Origin: a virus
DNA length: 26,434 nt
IMG/VR virus record: IMGVR_UViG_3300045995_000786
Coordinates: 1 to 26,434 of that record
Strand: one strand, 5' to 3'
Part shown: piece after piece, positions 6,631 through 24,589 of the stretch
How positions within the stretch are numbered: position 1 is the stretch's first letter
How the letters are laid out: each line of letters starts with the position of its first letter
Translations under genes and position numbers: made by a program
The notes under the pieces: model-generated
Databases searched by the model: none
What the model was told of the DNA's origin: nothing
Seen by the model: only the letters and a program-made list of their open reading frames with translations

Positions 6631-7707
6631 ATGGAAGGAAAAAAACTCAGCATCTTGATGATCAACAACACGAAGAATGAAAATCCTTCGTACTGCTTCA
6701 GGAATAAAATCGTAGGAATCGCACTCGAGAAACTCGGCCACAAAGTTCATTATGGAACAACGGCCGTGAATATTGATATTGATGACTACGATGTTTTTAT
6801 TTTCAATCGATTCTATGAAGGTACAATGGCAAAATATGTAGAGTTCCTGAAGAGTATTGGCAAGACCATTATTTATGATAGCGATGATAATTACGAAGGA
6901 ATCGATGAGAGCCATGCATTCATGAAGATAAAGGACATTGCAATCCTGTCGTCTCGCGAACTGATAAAGTTGGCAGATGGAATCACAGTCAGCACCCCGG
7001 AACTCAAAGCAGAAATCCACAACTTCTATCCTGAAAAAGATATCTATGTGGTGCCGAATGCATTGGAACTGGACAAATACAAAAAACGAAAAGGAGGAAA
7101 CAAAAAACTCCGCATAGGTTTTCAAGGTTCAAACATTCATGTGCAAGATTTGCTGATAGTCATCGATGCCATCGCTGAACTGCAGAAAGAGTATGGATTT
7201 GAATTTGTCATATTTGGAATTGATGACACACCATTCAAAGACCTGAACAAATTCTGCATGGAATACAAAGACAAGAAATGGCAATGGATGGAAGACTTCC
7301 CAAAACTGTATGAAAAACTCGAGCAGATGGAATACACTCACATCAAGACAGTGGAGTTTGAAAAATATAGAGAGAAACTGTCCGATCTCAATCTTGACAT
7401 CGGAATTGCACCGCTGACAGACAATCGATTCAATAGGTCGAAATCGTGTCTGAAGTTTTATGAGTATGCGGCCGTGGGAACGGTCACACTGGCCAGCAAG
7501 GTGCTTCCGTACACGCTAGAAATGGACGATGAGGACTTGGTAAAGAATCGACACGACAAATGGGTGTCTAAACTCCGAAAACTCATCACAGACGAAGCGT
7601 ATCGCCAAGAAAGACTGTACTCGCAAGAAGCGTGGATTAATGAGAACCGAGACATCAACAAAGTAGTCAAGCAGTGGGAAAATATAATCAATTTAATAAA
7701 AAAATAA
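6631..7707 (+). CDS. Glycosyltransferase, GT-B fold (GT4-like)
   Basis: This 358-residue enzyme would move a sugar from a nucleotide-sugar to an acceptor. The N-terminal half (ILMINNTKNENPSYCFRNKIVG, with IIYDSDDNY near ~92-100) resembles the acceptor-side Rossmann domain, and VSTPELKAEI plus VVPNALELDKY mark the domain link. The donor-side domain carries the conserved SKSCLKFYEYAAVGTVTLAS block (~270-289), whose Glu is expected to contact the donor. No signal peptide is seen, so it should act in the cytoplasm. It is the first of a run of sugar-related genes placed between capsid and tail genes, suggesting that virion proteins or a host surface polymer are the target. The fold call is strong; donor and acceptor are unknown. 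Confidence 0.85.
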   Translation: MEGKKLSILMINNTKNENPSYCFRNKIVGIALEKLGHKVHYGTTAVNIDIDDYDVFIFNRFYEGTMAKYVEFLKSIGKTIIYDSDDNYEGIDESHAFMKIKDIAILSSRELIKLADGITVSTPELKAEIHNFYPEKDIYVVPNALELDKYKKRKGGNKKLRIGFQGSNIHVQDLLIVIDAIAELQKEYGFEFVIFGIDDTPFKDLNKFCMEYKDKKWQWMEDFPKLYEKLEQMEYTHIKTVEFEKYREKLSDLNLDIGIAPLTDNRFNRSKSCLKFYEYAAVGTVTLASKVLPYTLEMDDEDLVKNRHDKWVSKLRKLITDEAYRQERLYSQEAWINENRDINKVVKQWENIINLIKK

Positions 7708-7708
7708 G

Positions 7709-8155
7709 ATGAAAGACATTTTAATTGCAGTAGAAAGAGTTGGAGCCGAAGACACAAACGCTCAAGATGAAAGAATTGTAGAAATTGTTAGAGAATTAGC
7801 GGACGAAAACATTGTGCATGTTTATGCGAGCAGTGTTGTGCTGAATGAATATGGAGAATATCTCCGAGCCAAAGGAATTGAACTTCACACTCAAGGTGGA
7901 ACATCAGTCGCAGATATGCAGAATGAATTTGATGTCATTATTGCATTTGATATTTGGGGAATCAAAAACTCAAGACAATTTCAAGCACCAAAGAAAATCA
8001 GAGTGCAAGAAGACAGCACGCTGATGAGTTTGGTCAGTGAAATCAACAAGAAAGAAGAAAAAAAAGAGGTTGAGGATGAAGATGAGGAAAAAATACAGAA
8101 ACCAAAACCCAAGGCAAAGCCGAAAGCAAAACCAGCAACAAAACCCAAAAAATAA
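7709..8155 (+). CDS. GT-like half-domain protein with a charged Lys/Pro tail
   Basis: A 148-residue protein. Residues 1-100 look like a single Rossmann-type domain: strand ILIAVERV, helix, strand IVHVYASS, then FDVIIAFDIWG, similar to the N-terminal half of GT-B glycosyltransferases. After residue ~110 it becomes low complexity: Lys/Glu/Asp-rich, then Pro-Lys-Ala repeats (PKPKAKPKAKPATKPKK). No donor-side catalytic domain is present, so it may be a relic, a partner subunit of the adjoining enzymes or a sugar-binding protein. It starts 1 nt after the preceding stop and ends 1 nt before the next ATG, so all three genes are probably one translational unit. Confidence 0.68.
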   Translation: MKDILIAVERVGAEDTNAQDERIVEIVRELADENIVHVYASSVVLNEYGEYLRAKGIELHTQGGTSVADMQNEFDVIIAFDIWGIKNSRQFQAPKKIRVQEDSTLMSLVSEINKKEEKKEVEDEDEEKIQKPKPKAKPKAKPATKPKK

Positions 8156-8156
8156 G

Positions 8157-9032
8157 ATGAAAATACTGATCACTGGCAATTCAATGAGCTATTTGAGCGG
8201 ACAGCCACTCTACTGCTATGAATTGGCTCGTGAACTGAAGCGTCTAGGCCACGAAATTGAGGTCAGGAGCGATTGGATGGGCTTCAAGGGTAACGATGGC
8301 CACAAACTCTTTGAAAACCTCGCAGGCGAAGGAATCCGGCCAACAGGGTGGGATTCTACATGGCTGACGAAGGACTTCGACCTGTGGCTGGCCAGTGAGG
8401 ACATCTCAATGCGTGTAAATGCAGAGATTCCAAACATTCCGATGATAAATATCGTCCACAGCGAATATGACTGCGAGACACCAATAATGGACAGGCCGTT
8501 TGCGTGGGTATGCATCCGGCCATCCATTCTTGATCACATCGTCAATGAACATTCAATACCAAAAGATAAATGCCATATCGTGTACAATGGAGTTGACCGC
8601 AAGCGATTCAAAAAAGGAAAGAAACATAGTGGAGACCACAACCTGACGGTGGTGCCTTGTACATTAGATCCGTTGCGTGAAAAGTTTATACGCCACTGCG
8701 AAAGACTGGCCAGCAAAATGAATCATTATCATTTTTATGGAAGCAAGCACGGTGTTGAAATTCAAGAGACAGAATTCGTCAAAGTGTTCCTGGACACATT
8801 CAACATAGAAAAACCAATCGCTGAAGCGGACTATGTCGCAGGGATACTTCTTGGCCGAGTGAACCTTGAAGCAAACAGTTGTGGAGTTCCATCTAAAATA
8901 TACGACCCAGTCACGCTCCAAAATAAAATATTTCTGATGCCTGAAGATGAATTCGACAAGCGTCACAATATAAAAAATGTTGCTAAACAATTATTGCAAA
9001 TATATGATGACATCATTCGCGGAAAACATTAA
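8157..9032 (+). CDS. Second glycosyltransferase, GT-B fold
   Basis: A 291-residue likely cytoplasmic glycosyltransferase. The N-terminus (MKILITGNSMSYLSGQPLYCYELARELKRLGHEI in outline) has the usual start strand, glycine turn and helix of the GT-B acceptor domain. HIVYNGVDRKRFKKG (~141-155) is the typical bridge between the two domains, and GRVNLEANSCGVPSKIYD (~233-250) is the donor-side block with its conserved Glu. The ATG at 8157 is chosen because it begins 1 nt after the previous stop; an in-frame GTG at 8037 would add 40 very basic residues that are only an out-of-frame reading of the previous low-complexity tail. It belongs to the sugar cassette. The substrate is unknown. Confidence 0.83.
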   Translation: MKILITGNSMSYLSGQPLYCYELARELKRLGHEIEVRSDWMGFKGNDGHKLFENLAGEGIRPTGWDSTWLTKDFDLWLASEDISMRVNAEIPNIPMINIVHSEYDCETPIMDRPFAWVCIRPSILDHIVNEHSIPKDKCHIVYNGVDRKRFKKGKKHSGDHNLTVVPCTLDPLREKFIRHCERLASKMNHYHFYGSKHGVEIQETEFVKVFLDTFNIEKPIAEADYVAGILLGRVNLEANSCGVPSKIYDPVTLQNKIFLMPEDEFDKRHNIKNVAKQLLQIYDDIIRGKH

Positions 9033-9543
9033 AAACATCCTAGAGGCTATCGTGGAGACTGATCCAAGGAAAATACTGGACATTGGGTCGGCTTTTGGGA
9101 AATACAGCATAATGGCAAGGGAGGCAATCCTGTCAGTACGAGCTGAGAGGGGAGATTTGACCCCTGTAGACGACTTGGAGATAGGATGTGTGGAAATGGC
9201 CGAATACTTCCAAAAACTGCCGTGGCACGAGAAATTGTACCAATTTCACTATCACACAGATGCCCGGAACATTGAGTGGAAAGACATGCCAAAATTTGAC
9301 CTTGTCCTGTTGATTGATGTGGTTGAGCATTGGAGCAAAGAAGACTCAAAGAAATTGATTGCGGACATAAAAAATAACACCGGAGCAAAGGTGCTAATAT
9401 CCACTCCCAAAGATGTATATTTTTACAAAGAAGAATACTACGGAAAAGATTGTCCAAAACATGTGAGCCAGTGGAGTCGCGAAGACTTTGAAGGATTCAT
9501 CCTTGACAAGTCAACCGAGCAAAGCCATATCTTTATAGTTTGA
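9004..9543 (+). CDS. Class I SAM-dependent methyltransferase
   Basis: A ~179-residue methyltransferase. Motif I is ILDIGSAFGKY near residue 24-34, which binds S-adenosylmethionine. The FDLVLLIDVVEHW block with a following helix and the VLISTPKD strand are those of the type-11/23 small-molecule methyltransferases. The start is taken as the ATG pair at 9004/9007, inside the end of the previous glycosyltransferase gene; an in-frame ATG at 8977 is also possible. No DNA-methylase catalytic motif (DPPY or PC) is seen, so DNA is an unlikely target. As the last gene of the sugar cassette it probably methylates a sugar or an intermediate of the same pathway, which is inference. Its stop overlaps the next promoter. 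Confidence 0.83.
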   Translation: MMTSFAENIKNILEAIVETDPRKILDIGSAFGKYSIMAREAILSVRAERGDLTPVDDLEIGCVEMAEYFQKLPWHEKLYQFHYHTDARNIEWKDMPKFDLVLLIDVVEHWSKEDSKKLIADIKNNTGAKVLISTPKDVYFYKEEYYGKDCPKHVSQWSREDFEGFILDKSTEQSHIFIV

Positions 9544-9568: not shown

Positions 9569-9613
9569 TTAGACAATAATTAATCAAAGTTGCGGAAGGG
9601 ACTTTTCAAAAGT

Positions 9614-10174
9614 ATGTTATTCAACGACACAGTGAATCACGCCGGAGAAATTTCCATTAGGATCATCCGCAATGGAAAAGCAAAACTAATTTGGCAAGAA
9701 TATAGATTCTTGCACTACTTCAGAAAACACTTTGGAATAAACTTCCCAAAGTTTTTTGGCTTGACAGGATACATGACTAGAAATGCACACTATGCAAATC
9801 TTCTCGTGACTGCAGGCAAGGGATTGATCACAACGAGAATCAATGGAATCGGTTCCCCTGCGGCACCATCCTACATGGCTATCGGTACCGGAACGAATGC
9901 GGCGGCCGCTGGAGACACTGCACTGCAGACAGAATCAACAGGCACAGGATATGATCGAGTGTCAGGAACACAATCAACGCAAACAACCGACACAGCAAGC
10001 GATACAAATCAACTGCTCGCTTCTTGGACTGTGTCATCTTCAAAAGCAATCACTGAAATGGGAATATTAAACGCCGCTTCAGTCGGAACATTATTCGTGC
10101 GAAATGTATTCTCTGCATACACTCTGCAAAGCGGTGACACATTTGAAATCACGCATAAGCTGAAGCATGCATAA
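9614..10174 (+). CDS. Probable tail or baseplate-type structural protein
   Basis: A 186-residue protein with a helical, basic first third and a beta-rich remainder. The C-terminal ~110 residues follow a pattern common in phage tail-tip and fibre-associated proteins: MAIGTGTNAAAAGDTALQ near 90-107, a strand, then ITEMGILNA, LFVRNVFSAYTLQSGDTFEITHKL. I prefer the ATG at 9614, 14 nt after GGAAGG (9594-9599); an in-frame TTG at 9590 would add 8 residues but would place that GGAAGG inside the gene. It is the first gene after a strong promoter and leads the tail/host-contact block. The virion location is inferred from the pattern and the neighbours. Confidence 0.75.
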   Translation: MLFNDTVNHAGEISIRIIRNGKAKLIWQEYRFLHYFRKHFGINFPKFFGLTGYMTRNAHYANLLVTAGKGLITTRINGIGSPAAPSYMAIGTGTNAAAAGDTALQTESTGTGYDRVSGTQSTQTTDTASDTNQLLASWTVSSSKAITEMGILNAASVGTLFVRNVFSAYTLQSGDTFEITHKLKHA

Positions 10175-10189
10175 GAATAAAGAAATGAG

Positions 10190-11017
10190 ATGCAATACAA
10201 TGACACAAGAATTCAGTACGATAATTCACTCGTCAATTATGACGGGAGCTGGGCTCTCAAGATAAATGAGACCTGTATTCATTCTGAAGCAATATCAAAA
10301 AAAGTTCAGAAAAGAGTATCTGAAATTGCTACTCATAGCGAAGTCATTGCTAAAAAAATTCAGAAACGAATCAGCGAGATTGCAACATATTCAGAAATTC
10401 AAAAGATAAAAATAGGATTACATATTTCAGAAATAGCCACGCACTCAGAAAGCATGGCTAAGTTCATTAGAAAAAGAATAAACGAGACATCCACGCACTC
10501 AGAGTTATTGTCCAAGAAAATTCAAACATCAATATCCGAAGTGTCAACGCACACAGAAACGCTTGCTAAAAAAGCAAAGGTAGTTTTTGCGGAAACAGTT
10601 ACACATACAGAATCGTTCCTGAAGAAGATCGGCCATCACATTTCGGAGACAGCAACGCATACTGAAGTGTGGACTCGGACAATTCGCGTGCATATCAGTG
10701 AGACTGTGACTCACATAGAGTCTTGGACATTCAATTCGTTTCAAAGAATTCGTGGTGTCATTGGAATGATAAAGGAATTTGTTAGAATCGGAGACAGAAA
10801 AGAAAAAGTCAGTGCTAAAAATGTAGGAGTTGGAGCAAGAGAGGAACTCAATGCACCATATCGTCAATACGATGATGATTCAATACTGTACGATGCACCG
10901 TCAGTGTGTTATAATAATTACATATCAAGTGAAAAGCCAGTATTAGTAATAAATAAACAAAATAAAAATGTCAGCGTGTCCAGCAAAAAGGACAAGCCCG
11001 GCATATCAAAACAATGA
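10190..11017 (+). CDS. Repeat protein with nine 18-residue units, probable fibre or virion surface protein
   Basis: A 275-residue protein. Residues 25-186 are nine back-to-back 18-residue units with consensus I-S-E-x-x-T-H-[ST]-E-x-x-x-K-K-I-x-x-[RH]. Glu-3 and Glu-9 are kept in all nine and His-7 in eight (Tyr in the third). The units drift from Lys-rich at the N-side to Trp/Arg/His-rich at the C-side. Hydrophobic positions 1, 4, 11 and 15, with Ser/Thr at 8, could suit a coiled coil of 7 + 11 residues (18 residues equal five helical turns); the many Thr and Val residues also allow a beta solenoid. Short motifs QYDNSLVNYD (N-side) and QYDDDSILYD (C-side) flank the array. It lies between tail-type genes and overlaps the next gene by 4 nt. 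No known family is recognised. Confidence 0.82.
   Translation: MQYNDTRIQYDNSLVNYDGSWALKINETCIHSEAISKKVQKRVSEIATHSEVIAKKIQKRISEIATYSEIQKIKIGLHISEIATHSESMAKFIRKRINETSTHSELLSKKIQTSISEVSTHTETLAKKAKVVFAETVTHTESFLKKIGHHISETATHTEVWTRTIRVHISETVTHIESWTFNSFQRIRGVIGMIKEFVRIGDRKEKVSAKNVGVGAREELNAPYRQYDDDSILYDAPSVCYNNYISSEKPVLVINKQNKNVSVSSKKDKPGISKQ
10262..10747 (+). repeat. Nine tandem degenerate 54-bp coding units
   Basis: This is the DNA that encodes the nine 18-residue units of the repeat protein. The period is exactly 54 bp with no insertion or deletion between units. DNA identity between units is clearly lower than the protein pattern, with synonymous differences throughout, so it is an old, selected repeat and not a recent expansion. 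Confidence 0.88.
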
Positions 11018-11365: not shown

Positions 11366-12469
11366 ATGGCTGTAAATTTTCCAACAAGTTTAGACACATT
11401 AACAAATCCAACAGCAACGGATTATTTAAACAGTCCTTCACATGCAGGACAGCATGCAAATGCGAATGATATTCTTGAGGCATTGGAGGCTAAAGTTGGT
11501 ATTGACGGATCCGCAGTGACAACTTCGCATGCATTCTTATTGGCAGGACTTGGTGCAGGAATATCAGTCAAAGCGTATGTTGATGCAATTACTAGATATT
11601 CAAATCTTTCGCTTGCAACTGGACAGATGATTAATGGAAAAATTGTCGTCACAGTCACTTCAAACAACATTACGCTTGCATTGAAAGGTGCTGACGGAAA
11701 CGACCCCTCTGCTTCAAACCCTGTTTATTGTAAAATTGGAGGAGTTATCCGAAGTGTTACCGCCGCACGTTCAGTCACGAAAAATGCCGCAACAAACTGG
11801 ATGAACGCAGGAAGTTCTGAGTTAGCCACAAAAGAAATAGATTATTTTGCATATCTTGGATATAACGCAACGGACGGTGTAACACTTGGATTTTCTCGCA
11901 TTCCTTTTGCTTGTCAGTATTCTGATTTTTCAACAACAACAACTAACGAAAAATACGCCGCCATTTCTACAATCACAAATGCCGCCGCAACTGATTATTA
12001 CAATGTGATTGGACGCTTTGCCGCCACGCTTTCCGCAGGTGCTGGTTATACTTGGAGTGTTCCTACTTATACAGCTATCAATCTTATTCAAAGACCGATT
12101 TGGGAAACAAGGTGGCTATCACTAGCAACACTCGACAACAGATATAAATATGATGAAGGAACTCTTACAATTAAAGGGTGGAATTTTATTCAAATATCTG
12201 GAACAGCTGGTGTACATGGAGCTGTAAAAGCCATTACATTCCCGATGACTTTTGCGTCTGTCCCATCTATTCTAGTAACACCACTTGGTTTTAGAAACAA
12301 TTCAAATCCAACAGTTATTACTGATTTAGGTACATCTGATGGTGCAACTTATGCTGTAAGTCAAGGACATTTGGTAACAGGATTTAGTGGTGGAGCTGGG
12401 TATATCGATGCTGTATTAGCAAATACCTATCGCATAGGATTTGTGTGGGAAGCTAAAGGTAAACAATAA
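11366..12469 (+). CDS. Probable tail fibre / receptor-binding protein
   Basis: A 367-residue protein. The first ~55 residues (FPTSLDTLTNP, SPSHAGQHANANDILEALEAKVG) match the attachment segment seen at the start of many phage fibre-type proteins, probably joining it to the tail. The centre (~115-225) is a Thr/Ala/Gly-rich beta domain with many aromatic residues (DYFAYLGYNATDGVTLGFSRIP, DYYNVIGRFAATLS). The C-terminal ~110 residues form another beta domain (GWNFIQISGTAG, AITFPMTFASVPSILVTPLGF, GFVWEAKGK) like those that bind host surface sugars. Codons are richer in T (ctt, ttt, gct) than in adjoining genes, a hint of domain exchange. AGGAAGG lies 12 nt before the ATG. A role in host recognition is likely; the receptor is unknown. 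Confidence 0.78.
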   Translation: MAVNFPTSLDTLTNPTATDYLNSPSHAGQHANANDILEALEAKVGIDGSAVTTSHAFLLAGLGAGISVKAYVDAITRYSNLSLATGQMINGKIVVTVTSNNITLALKGADGNDPSASNPVYCKIGGVIRSVTAARSVTKNAATNWMNAGSSELATKEIDYFAYLGYNATDGVTLGFSRIPFACQYSDFSTTTTNEKYAAISTITNAAATDYYNVIGRFAATLSAGAGYTWSVPTYTAINLIQRPIWETRWLSLATLDNRYKYDEGTLTIKGWNFIQISGTAGVHGAVKAITFPMTFASVPSILVTPLGFRNNSNPTVITDLGTSDGATYAVSQGHLVTGFSGGAGYIDAVLANTYRIGFVWEAKGKQ

Positions 12470-21613: not shown

Positions 21614-21662
21614 AAAATAAAACAGCAGTTACGTTCCTTCCGCGTACCTGCTGTTTTATTTT
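21614..21662. terminator. Strong bidirectional terminator between convergent genes
   Basis: A perfect 15-bp stem, AAAATAAAACAGCAG (21614-21628) with CTGCTGTTTTATTTT (21648-21662), is extended past one mismatch by TACG/CGTA around a short loop. T-rich arms on both strands let it stop the late + strand RNA and the reverse-strand HNH RNA; the stop codon of the HNH gene lies inside the right arm. Confidence 0.92.
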
Positions 21663-22108
21663 CTGACAAATTCTGCGTGATATTTTTTAGCATGAATATT
21701 ATAAGCAATAGATGCTTCCTTTGCAGTGACGAATGTACCAATGTACATTCTTTTTTTATTCACAGTTATTCTAGCAATGAATTTATTTGTGGCCTTCTTA
21801 AGTGACACTCCTTTAAACCCGGAATTATTGTCTTTTCTCTTGATACGATTCCATTGATTTTGTGCTGTGGTGCATATTCTTAAATTGCATCTCCTATTAT
21901 CCAAACCATCGCCATTAATGTGATCAGTTTCCATCCCCTTGGGAGTGTTTAAAATTATACGATGCATTAATACATTTTTGTATTCCCTGCTTTTAGCCAT
22001 CGCATATCCAGCATTATAATACCAGCTATATTTTGATACTTCATTGAAATCTTCATCATCAACAATAGAGTGACCACCATGCCGTCCTGACAGTTTAATT
22101 TTTTTCAT
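21656..22108 (-). CDS. HNH homing endonuclease with AP2 DNA-binding domain
   Basis: A 150-residue selfish nuclease. Residues ~47-88 carry an HNH_3-type core: LMHRIILNTPKG, then the metal-binding DHINGDGLDNRR (62-73) and NLRICTTAQNQWN. Residues ~97-148 are an AP2-like domain (NSGFKGVSLKK, FIARITVNKKRMYIGTF, AKEASIAYNIHAKKYH), which would grip DNA. It is the only gene on the reverse strand, placed alone between the late and early regions, as expected for an inserted free-standing homing nuclease. Its start lies beside a long inverted repeat, and a TATAAA on its strand ends 8 nt before its ATG. Confidence 0.92.
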   Translation of the reverse strand: MKKIKLSGRHGGHSIVDDEDFNEVSKYSWYYNAGYAMAKSREYKNVLMHRIILNTPKGMETDHINGDGLDNRRCNLRICTTAQNQWNRIKRKDNNSGFKGVSLKKATNKFIARITVNKKRMYIGTFVTAKEASIAYNIHAKKYHAEFVRK

Positions 22109-22423: not shown

Positions 22424-22717
22424 ATGCAATACGACAGAAAAATATACGAAAAACGCCGAGACAACAAAATAAAGGAAAAAACAGGGTTTAGCAGGTCAAC
22501 AGTCAAGAGATACGGAGAAAACACACTAAAAGAGCTAAAAAATGACTGGAAATGCTCAAAATGCGAAGAAACAAGCGACCTGACAATCCACCATAAAGAC
22601 AGAAATGGGATAAACAAGGCTAAAATAGGAGAAAAGATGAATAACAATATAGAAAATTTGGAAGTAATGTGCAGGAAGTGTCACGGCGGACTGCACAATA
22701 GAGATAGAATTAAATAA
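22424..22717 (+). CDS. HNH endonuclease-like protein (zinc-finger type)
   Basis: A 97-residue protein. After a basic N-terminal helical region (~1-40) that may bind DNA comes an HNH core: WKCSKCEE (Cys pair), TIHHKDRNG (His-His-Lys-Asp), NNIENLEVMCRKCHGGLH (Asn, second Cys pair, final His). The Cys pairs should hold a structural zinc and the HHKD a catalytic metal. It could be a free-standing homing nuclease or a phage DNA nuclease; first position behind the early promoter suggests it is made at once after infection. No Shine-Dalgarno site is seen. Confidence 0.83.
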   Translation: MQYDRKIYEKRRDNKIKEKTGFSRSTVKRYGENTLKELKNDWKCSKCEETSDLTIHHKDRNGINKAKIGEKMNNNIENLEVMCRKCHGGLHNRDRIK

Positions 22718-24003: not shown

Positions 24004-24222
24004 ATGCCTGAAAAATTAACAACAACTCAAGAAAGAATCTACGCCTACATCGCTGGATACATCGAAGACAACAAATACTCTCCGACATATCAAGAAATCG
24101 CGATGAGAGTGGACTCAACAACGCAGATGGTCGAGAGCCATGTAAAAAACATAGCTAAAAAAGGATTCATAAAATTTAATGGGAAAAAGCATCGAAGAAT
24201 CGAGCTTATACCAAAAGATTAA
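24004..24222 (+). CDS. LexA-type winged-helix DNA-binding protein without peptidase domain
   Basis: A 72-residue protein that covers just the N-terminal DNA-binding domain of LexA: LTTTQERIYAYIAGYIEDNKYSP (first helices), TYQEIAMRVDST (helix-turn-helix start), TQMVESHVKNIAKKGFIKF (recognition helix and wing), RRIELIP (final strand). The dimerisation and self-cleavage part of LexA is absent, so it cannot be cleaved like LexA. It could regulate the early genes or occupy host LexA sites. No clear operator was found by eye near the early promoter. Confidence 0.84.
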   Translation: MPEKLTTTQERIYAYIAGYIEDNKYSPTYQEIAMRVDSTTQMVESHVKNIAKKGFIKFNGKKHRRIELIPKD

Positions 24223-24223
24223 T

Positions 24224-24589
24224 ATGGCGAAAATGAACACTCCTGAATGGAGAAAAAATGTAGGAGACGGAGTCAGGAAAAAATGCCAAGGAGACGGAAA
24301 CAGTCAATGGAAAGGAGATGATGCAAAACCTCCAGCAATGCATAGATGGATAAAAAAACTTAAGGGAACTCCAAAATACTGCGAGCATTGCGAAAGGACT
24401 GACAAGAAAAAATACGAGTGGGCAAACAAGGATCACAAATATAGCAGAAATCCTGATGACTATATGCGATTATGCACAACATGCCACATCAAACATGACA
24501 TAACATTTTTAGGGAAAAAACATGGTGGAGCAAGTCGAACTACACCTCCCAAACAAGATGAAAAAGGAAGATTTATAAAAAACATATGA
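24224..24589 (+). CDS. HNH-type protein with zinc-ribbon core
   Basis: A 121-residue protein. The N-terminal ~40 residues are basic and Gly/Asn-rich (KKCQGDGNSQWKGDDAK), as in other phage HNH proteins. The core is HRWIKKLKGTPKYCEHCER (first Cys pair), YEWANKDHKYSRNPDDYMRLCTTCHIKHD (Asn-Lys-Asp-His and second Cys pair). This is a common free-standing HNH type in phages, close to the EWANKDHKY group. The ATG at 24224 follows the LexA-like stop by 1 nt; an in-frame ATG at 24179 lies in the end of that gene and is rejected. It is coupled to the next gene by ATGA. A nuclease or homing role is probable. Confidence 0.82.
   Translation: MAKMNTPEWRKNVGDGVRKKCQGDGNSQWKGDDAKPPAMHRWIKKLKGTPKYCEHCERTDKKKYEWANKDHKYSRNPDDYMRLCTTCHIKHDITFLGKKHGGASRTTPPKQDEKGRFIKNI

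Follow-up and report, generated by a model that had tools for sequence, protein, structure and literature searches.

The fibre I of Ralstonia phage GP4, with its gp80 module (Pfam PF23140), is among the described systems closest to the locus presented here. Moreover, helix-plus-turn shafts are found in R-pyocin and phi29 fibres (PMC6116203, PMC6542822), and HxH iron sites in the fibres of T4 (gp37) and of R-pyocins (PMC6116203). The 26,434-nucleotide stretch of viral DNA analysed here (further referred to as the window) carries genes for a terminase large subunit, a P22-like portal, a major head protein, an amidase endolysin, and an ERF-type annealing protein. The features surrounding its repeat array are as follows:

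9590–10174, + strand: gp80-like gene for a fibre/collar adaptor of 194 aa (Pfam PF23140 Gp80, phrog_5417), directly upstream of the repeat gene
10190–11017, + strand: gene for a putative repeat-bearing fibre protein (ORF of 275 aa), related to repeat ORFs beside gp80 relatives
10196–10243, + strand: N-terminal Tyr heptads YNDTRIQ-YDNSLVN-YD, residues 3–18 of the repeat protein
10262–10747, + strand: nine 18-residue units with the consensus [IV]-S-E-[TI]-x-T-H-[ST]-E-x-x-x-K-K-I-x-x-x
10868–10915, + strand: C-terminal Tyr heptads YDDDSIL-YDAPSVC-YN, residues 227–242 of the repeat protein
11366–12469, + strand: putative fibre gene of 367 aa, sharing 65% identity across its N-terminal 65 aa with an ORF in the IMG/VR locus L006

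The repeat gene and its neighbourhood

The 194-aa ORF matched PF23140 ("Podophage GP4 fiber I protein gp80") with an E-value of 1.1e-6 and 29.4 bits (cutoff of 27), which is the one moderate Pfam match linking the window to GP4 fibre I, and matched phrog_5417 with an E-value of 1e-14. A profile of gp80 relatives retrieved no chain from the PDB. The repeat gene starts (at 10190) 15 bases past the stop of this gp80-like gene (at 10174) and on the same strand, a position in keeping with an earlier reading of the letters (the sequence-only reading), which took the repeat protein for a phage fibre. The order of the window is kept in L006, where a gp80 gene is followed by a repeat gene whose product has these Tyr heptads at its N-terminus, too, and then by the fibre gene related to 11366–12469. 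Three Y[DNGS]x5 heptads in a row were encountered only in the window protein and in L006 among 8590 ORFs from the loci (zero being expected from shuffling).

Between the head and fibre genes (6631–9543), two glycosyltransferase-like ORFs and one methyltransferase-like ORF were observed. Since the first glycosyltransferase-like ORF has a relative in L006 that sits upstream of the same fibre block, glycosylation of the fibre or the capsid is possible. Elsewhere in the window, small ORFs at 21656–22108 (– strand), 22424–22717 (+ strand), and 24179–24589 (+ strand) resemble HNH-type endonucleases by eye. A further contig (L080; 8684 bases) encodes a major head protein and a portal that are 79% and 77% identical to those of the window, respectively, and ends just before the fibre block.

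The array spans residues 25–186 of the repeat ORF and is composed of nine in-frame 54-bp units with zero indels. Glu3 and Glu9 occur in 9/9 units each, while His7 (replaced by Tyr in unit 3) and Thr6 occur in 8/9. Residue identity within the protein reached 0.48 at a lag of 18 and 0.44 at a lag of 36, vs. a maximum of 0.20 over lags 5–39 in 5000 shuffles. Mean identity between units was 42% for protein, 48% for DNA, and 33% for third codon positions, and the conserved sites make use of both His codons (CAT and CAC) and both Glu codons. Because pS was near saturation (0.84) vs. a pN of 0.42, the repeat pattern is under purifying selection. In addition, Tandem Repeats Finder reported no DNA array at the repeat, and the unit copies are therefore old; taken with the third-position, pS, and pN values, this indicates old copies of which the protein pattern was kept by selection. 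Both the exact 18-residue register, with its invariant Glu3 and Glu9 and near-invariant His7, and the selection acting on diverged DNA copies had been proposed in the sequence-only reading, and both stood up to recounting.

A repeat family at gp80 loci

The family was delineated in 77 IMG/VR loci with gp80 relatives, all of which were chosen via gp80. A model-free repeat scan of all their reading frames revealed 18-residue arrays in many loci (e.g., LSEVITLVDILIKTSQRL in L005, ISDSITGTEAIIKETSKT in L006, and LAGTLTSSGTLIKQTGKV in L031), and some of these arrays were used to seed an HMM. At 38 loci, this HMM picked out a single repeat ORF apiece, which always shared its strand with gp80 and often lay tens of bases from it; in the 141-kb control phage Slicko01, the HMM had zero matches. 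A stricter unit scan, which replaced an iterated low-threshold scan that drifted, found at least two chained units at 46 of the 77 loci, often directly beside gp80. The 501 distinct, mutually non-independent units that it yielded have the consensus [LFVI]-[AST]-[GED]-[TSA]-[LIV]-[TS]-[PSL]-[AST]-[GDE]-[AST]-[LVI]-x-[KR]-x-x-x-[KR]-x. The window repeat protein matched that of L036 by BLASTP with the low-complexity filter (E-value of 5e-13) and shares with the family its 18-residue tandem units, a gp80-like neighbour on the same strand, one class of residue at positions 3 and 9, and small residues at even positions.

In a slightly smaller deduplicated set of units, 116 units had acids at both positions 3 and 9, 246 had Gly at both, and none combined an acid with a Gly, with the class being uniform within whole proteins and thus a property of proteins rather than of 501 independent units. 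The acidic and Gly classes could be aligned in register (hhalign probability of 95.6, pairwise E-value of 1e-8). Moreover, residues 1–6 and 7–12 of the unit are pseudo-equivalent, with their likeness being strongest at positions 3 and 9, which explains why Glu3 and Glu9 are both invariant and linked.

Arrays in relatives run up to about 30 units and lie beside or around other domains, such as a concanavalin A-like lectin domain that precedes the repeats in L004. Because of this arrangement, the array would serve as a spacer that presents adhesins. Within L058 (10837–13077), the 18-residue repeats are broken by a long segment that looks Kelch/beta-propeller-like by eye and suggests an inserted receptor-binding domain. 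Other repeats were seen near gp80 relatives as well, i.e., a different, PPDVHVDARTEIAEGAVQV-like 20-residue repeat, again acidic and with His, in L054 (2200–3783), and an ORF of L011 (5832–7199) that has collagen-like G-x-x repeats and precedes a gp80 relative.

The 18-residue repeat is without a model in Pfam or NCBIfam and without a PDB relative by sequence. The earlier statement that no described family has this unit is therefore correct as far as curation goes, but the unit is far from unique, given its presence at 46 of the 77 gp80-type loci. Three PHROGs of unknown function (phrog_12240, phrog_26712, and phrog_35289) were matched weakly over the repeat region by L003, L036, L026, L063, and L040, while the window protein itself had no significant match to any of the three. 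The only INPHARED record with a gp80 relative (MW202796.1) encodes an adjacent hypothetical protein with Ser-rich 18-residue repeats. Searching the window protein and its repeat relatives against cultured phages by tblastn gave no match, with the low-complexity filter possibly masking them. Some candidate relatives were discarded: L002, which came up in the direct search with the protein, was matched by chance and is a phage locus that is unrelated and devoid of repeats; apolipoprotein, FUT8, and similar Pfam matches to the window protein were below cutoff; and LSH1 gp34-type adhesins (PMC13243795) were dismissed as repeat carriers, since the related phage Slicko01 shows none.

Fold and role of the array

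We infer, with a probability of roughly 0.58, that the product of the repeat gene is a short structural component of a tail fibre attached at the collar, in which the repeats would form a rigid and probably homotrimeric beta shaft. The gp80-like protein (9590–10174) would link this fibre to the tail, and the repeat protein (10190–11017) would be the next element outward. Its nine units would then make a stiff shaft whose length is fixed, with the Tyr-rich heptads as a cap at each end. Each unit would comprise three hexads, of which the first (I-S-E-x-x-T) and the second (H-S-E-x-x-x) are pseudo-equivalent, and the beta-structured chains, probably three identical ones, would expose small Ser/Thr/Ala residues on one side and larger or charged residues on the other.

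The sequence-only reading had offered two folds, a straight 7+11 coiled coil and a beta structure, and both are still live candidates. Of the two, we prefer beta structure, in an oligomeric shaft, to the coiled coil, at somewhat better than even odds. Ser, Thr, and Ala together account for a share of 0.64 at even positions vs. 0.16 at odd positions, and even positions exceed odd ones in all 42 of the 42 proteins with at least four units (exact p-values of 2e-5 for the acidic class, 4e-4 for the Gly class, and 0.009 for the window alone). This parity pattern spans unit positions 1–12. A period-2 component in composition was also the largest one in each set by identity score (p ≤ 0.003 for both classes and 0.04 for the window), and was weaker with BLOSUM62.

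Unit lengths provide a second line of evidence. Units other than 18 residues long were 20 residues in 58 cases, 19 in three, 21 once, and 24 once. Since an insertion of two residues keeps the parity of a strand whereas it rotates a helix by 200 degrees, these +2 insertions favour beta structure. Among Gly-class arrays, a 20-residue unit ("..ALTLVRLILQS") was seen at every third or fourth place in L063 (13739–15067), L071 (7136–8299), L043 (8502–9503), and L077 (648–1556), with the most regular pattern being 18+18+18+20 (74 residues) in different phages.

The left-handed beta-helix (hexapeptide repeat) is built from [LIV]-[GAED]-x-x-[STAV]-x hexads, three per 18-residue coil. Although 18 equals 3 × 6, this particular beta fold was rejected upon comparison by hand, since in every phase at least one of the three hexad starts lacks an aliphatic residue (in the odd phases, Lys is found there at position 13 or 17) and the last hexad is unlike the other two.

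A long, nearly straight alpha-helical coiled coil, with 18 residues making five turns (7+11) to give the fibre rod and with the small residues at even positions being incidental, is an alternative that we regard as rather unlikely. It is in line with AlphaFold2, which drew helices in both classes, i.e., helices 20–133 and 140–210 for the window protein as a monomer (40-row alignment; pLDDT of about 90 across the first five units) and a long helix for a Gly-class relative as a monomer (pLDDT of 77). However, pTM was only 0.3 in these models (0.31 and 0.30, respectively), and AlphaFold2 can draw long helices for repetitive, low-information sequence. Foldseek searches of the helical models against the PDB and BFVD returned nothing useful. 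A weak hydrophobicity component at 100 degrees per residue, which was the largest or near-largest in all sets, and the weak apolipoprotein-like and helical-bundle matches further speak for helices. They are countered by the alternation of small residues in all 42 proteins, by the +2 insertions that would turn the core by 200 degrees, by a Ser plus Thr content of about 25% of residues, and by the make-up of the Gly-class units, 46% of which have Pro7 and about 80% of which have Gly3 and Gly9.

Even less probable appears a trimeric helix-plus-turn or helix-turn-helix supercoil, in which each unit would consist of a short capped helix (with a Thr6-x-x-Glu9 capping box or Thr6-Pro7) and an extended link. 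While T-x-x-E and T-P at positions 6–9 fit a helix start and some phage-like fibres, such as those of R-pyocins, have shafts of this helix-plus-turn kind (PMC6116203), no PDB chain was matched by sequence, the internal pseudo-repeat measures 6 rather than 9 residues, and the period-2 pattern runs across positions 1–12.

The histidine row

The sequence-only reading had proposed a ladder of HxE residues that could bind metal or polyanions such as host wall polymers; as the point of the repeat, this ladder is not supported as a family property. In the strict scan, His7 was present in 0/501 other family units, from which it follows that His-based metal or polyanion binding is not the function of the family. 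Two adjacent T-H-[S/T]-E units were found in no other IMG/VR contig, and in GTDB genomes in five unrelated stretches only, which were rejected as relatives for being low-complexity His/Glu sequence or out-of-frame repeats. Moreover, relatives with Leu, Ile, Gly, or Thr at position 7 keep Glu (or Asp) at positions 3 and 9, and the larger part of the family has Gly3 and Gly9 instead of acids, so that the acidic residues do not depend on His. With His being private to the window virus and the acids not being tied to it, the repeat must have a basic function other than a His/Glu ladder. Judged by its distribution in sequence, the His7 row of the window is a lineage-specific decoration.

A metal-binding ladder of HxE residues along the fibre axis, added later and comparable, though repeated, to the HxH iron sites known in T4 gp37 and R-pyocin fibres (PMC6116203), could account for His7 being kept in 8/9 units despite near-saturated synonymous sites and for the one parity of His7, Glu9, and Glu3 (hence a shared strand face), but we consider it very doubtful because His7 is found in 0/501 family units and the pattern in no second virus, relatives without His have the acidic positions 3 and 9, and the known sites are HxH whereas the window motif is HxE. 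In the same highly speculative vein, one lineage might have evolved, on the widespread 18-residue shaft, nine HxE units that are aligned on a single face across several chains and there hold a column of metal ions or work as a pH-sensitive switch.

From the sequence comparisons, then, the repeat is a widespread, undescribed, and unnamed putative variant of phage fibre shaft, for which the acids of the window are normal (Glu or Gly being found there) and its His row is not. "Hypothetical" phage proteins beside gp80-type fibre genes are hereby brought into one frame, that of a modular, putative shaft repeat which comes in two chemical classes (acidic/acidic and Gly/Gly) and has a two-residue length variant, often in every third or fourth unit. 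One solved member would allow the annotation of many uncultured phage fibres and decide between a new beta fibre and a coiled coil, and whether such shafts can carry metal or pH sites could naturally be tested on the His row of the window virus.

Compared with known systems, the R-pyocin and T4 gp37 fibres are likewise of phage type and bind metal on the axis of the trimer through His residues spaced two apart, whereas the window has HxE instead of HxH, in nine units, without conservation in the family and without a sequence match. The phi29 head fibre stem and the R-pyocin rods are, like the putative shaft of the window, short-period repetitive shafts of virion fibres, but differ from it in internal periodicity and have no sequence match to it. 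The PHROG families of unknown function matched by repeat relatives come with no function or structure attached. Finally, for the GP4 gp80 fibre module, the window repeat protein itself has no Pfam or PDB match, whereas the gene upstream of it scores above the Pfam cutoff and repeat ORFs adjoin gp80 relatives in many phages.
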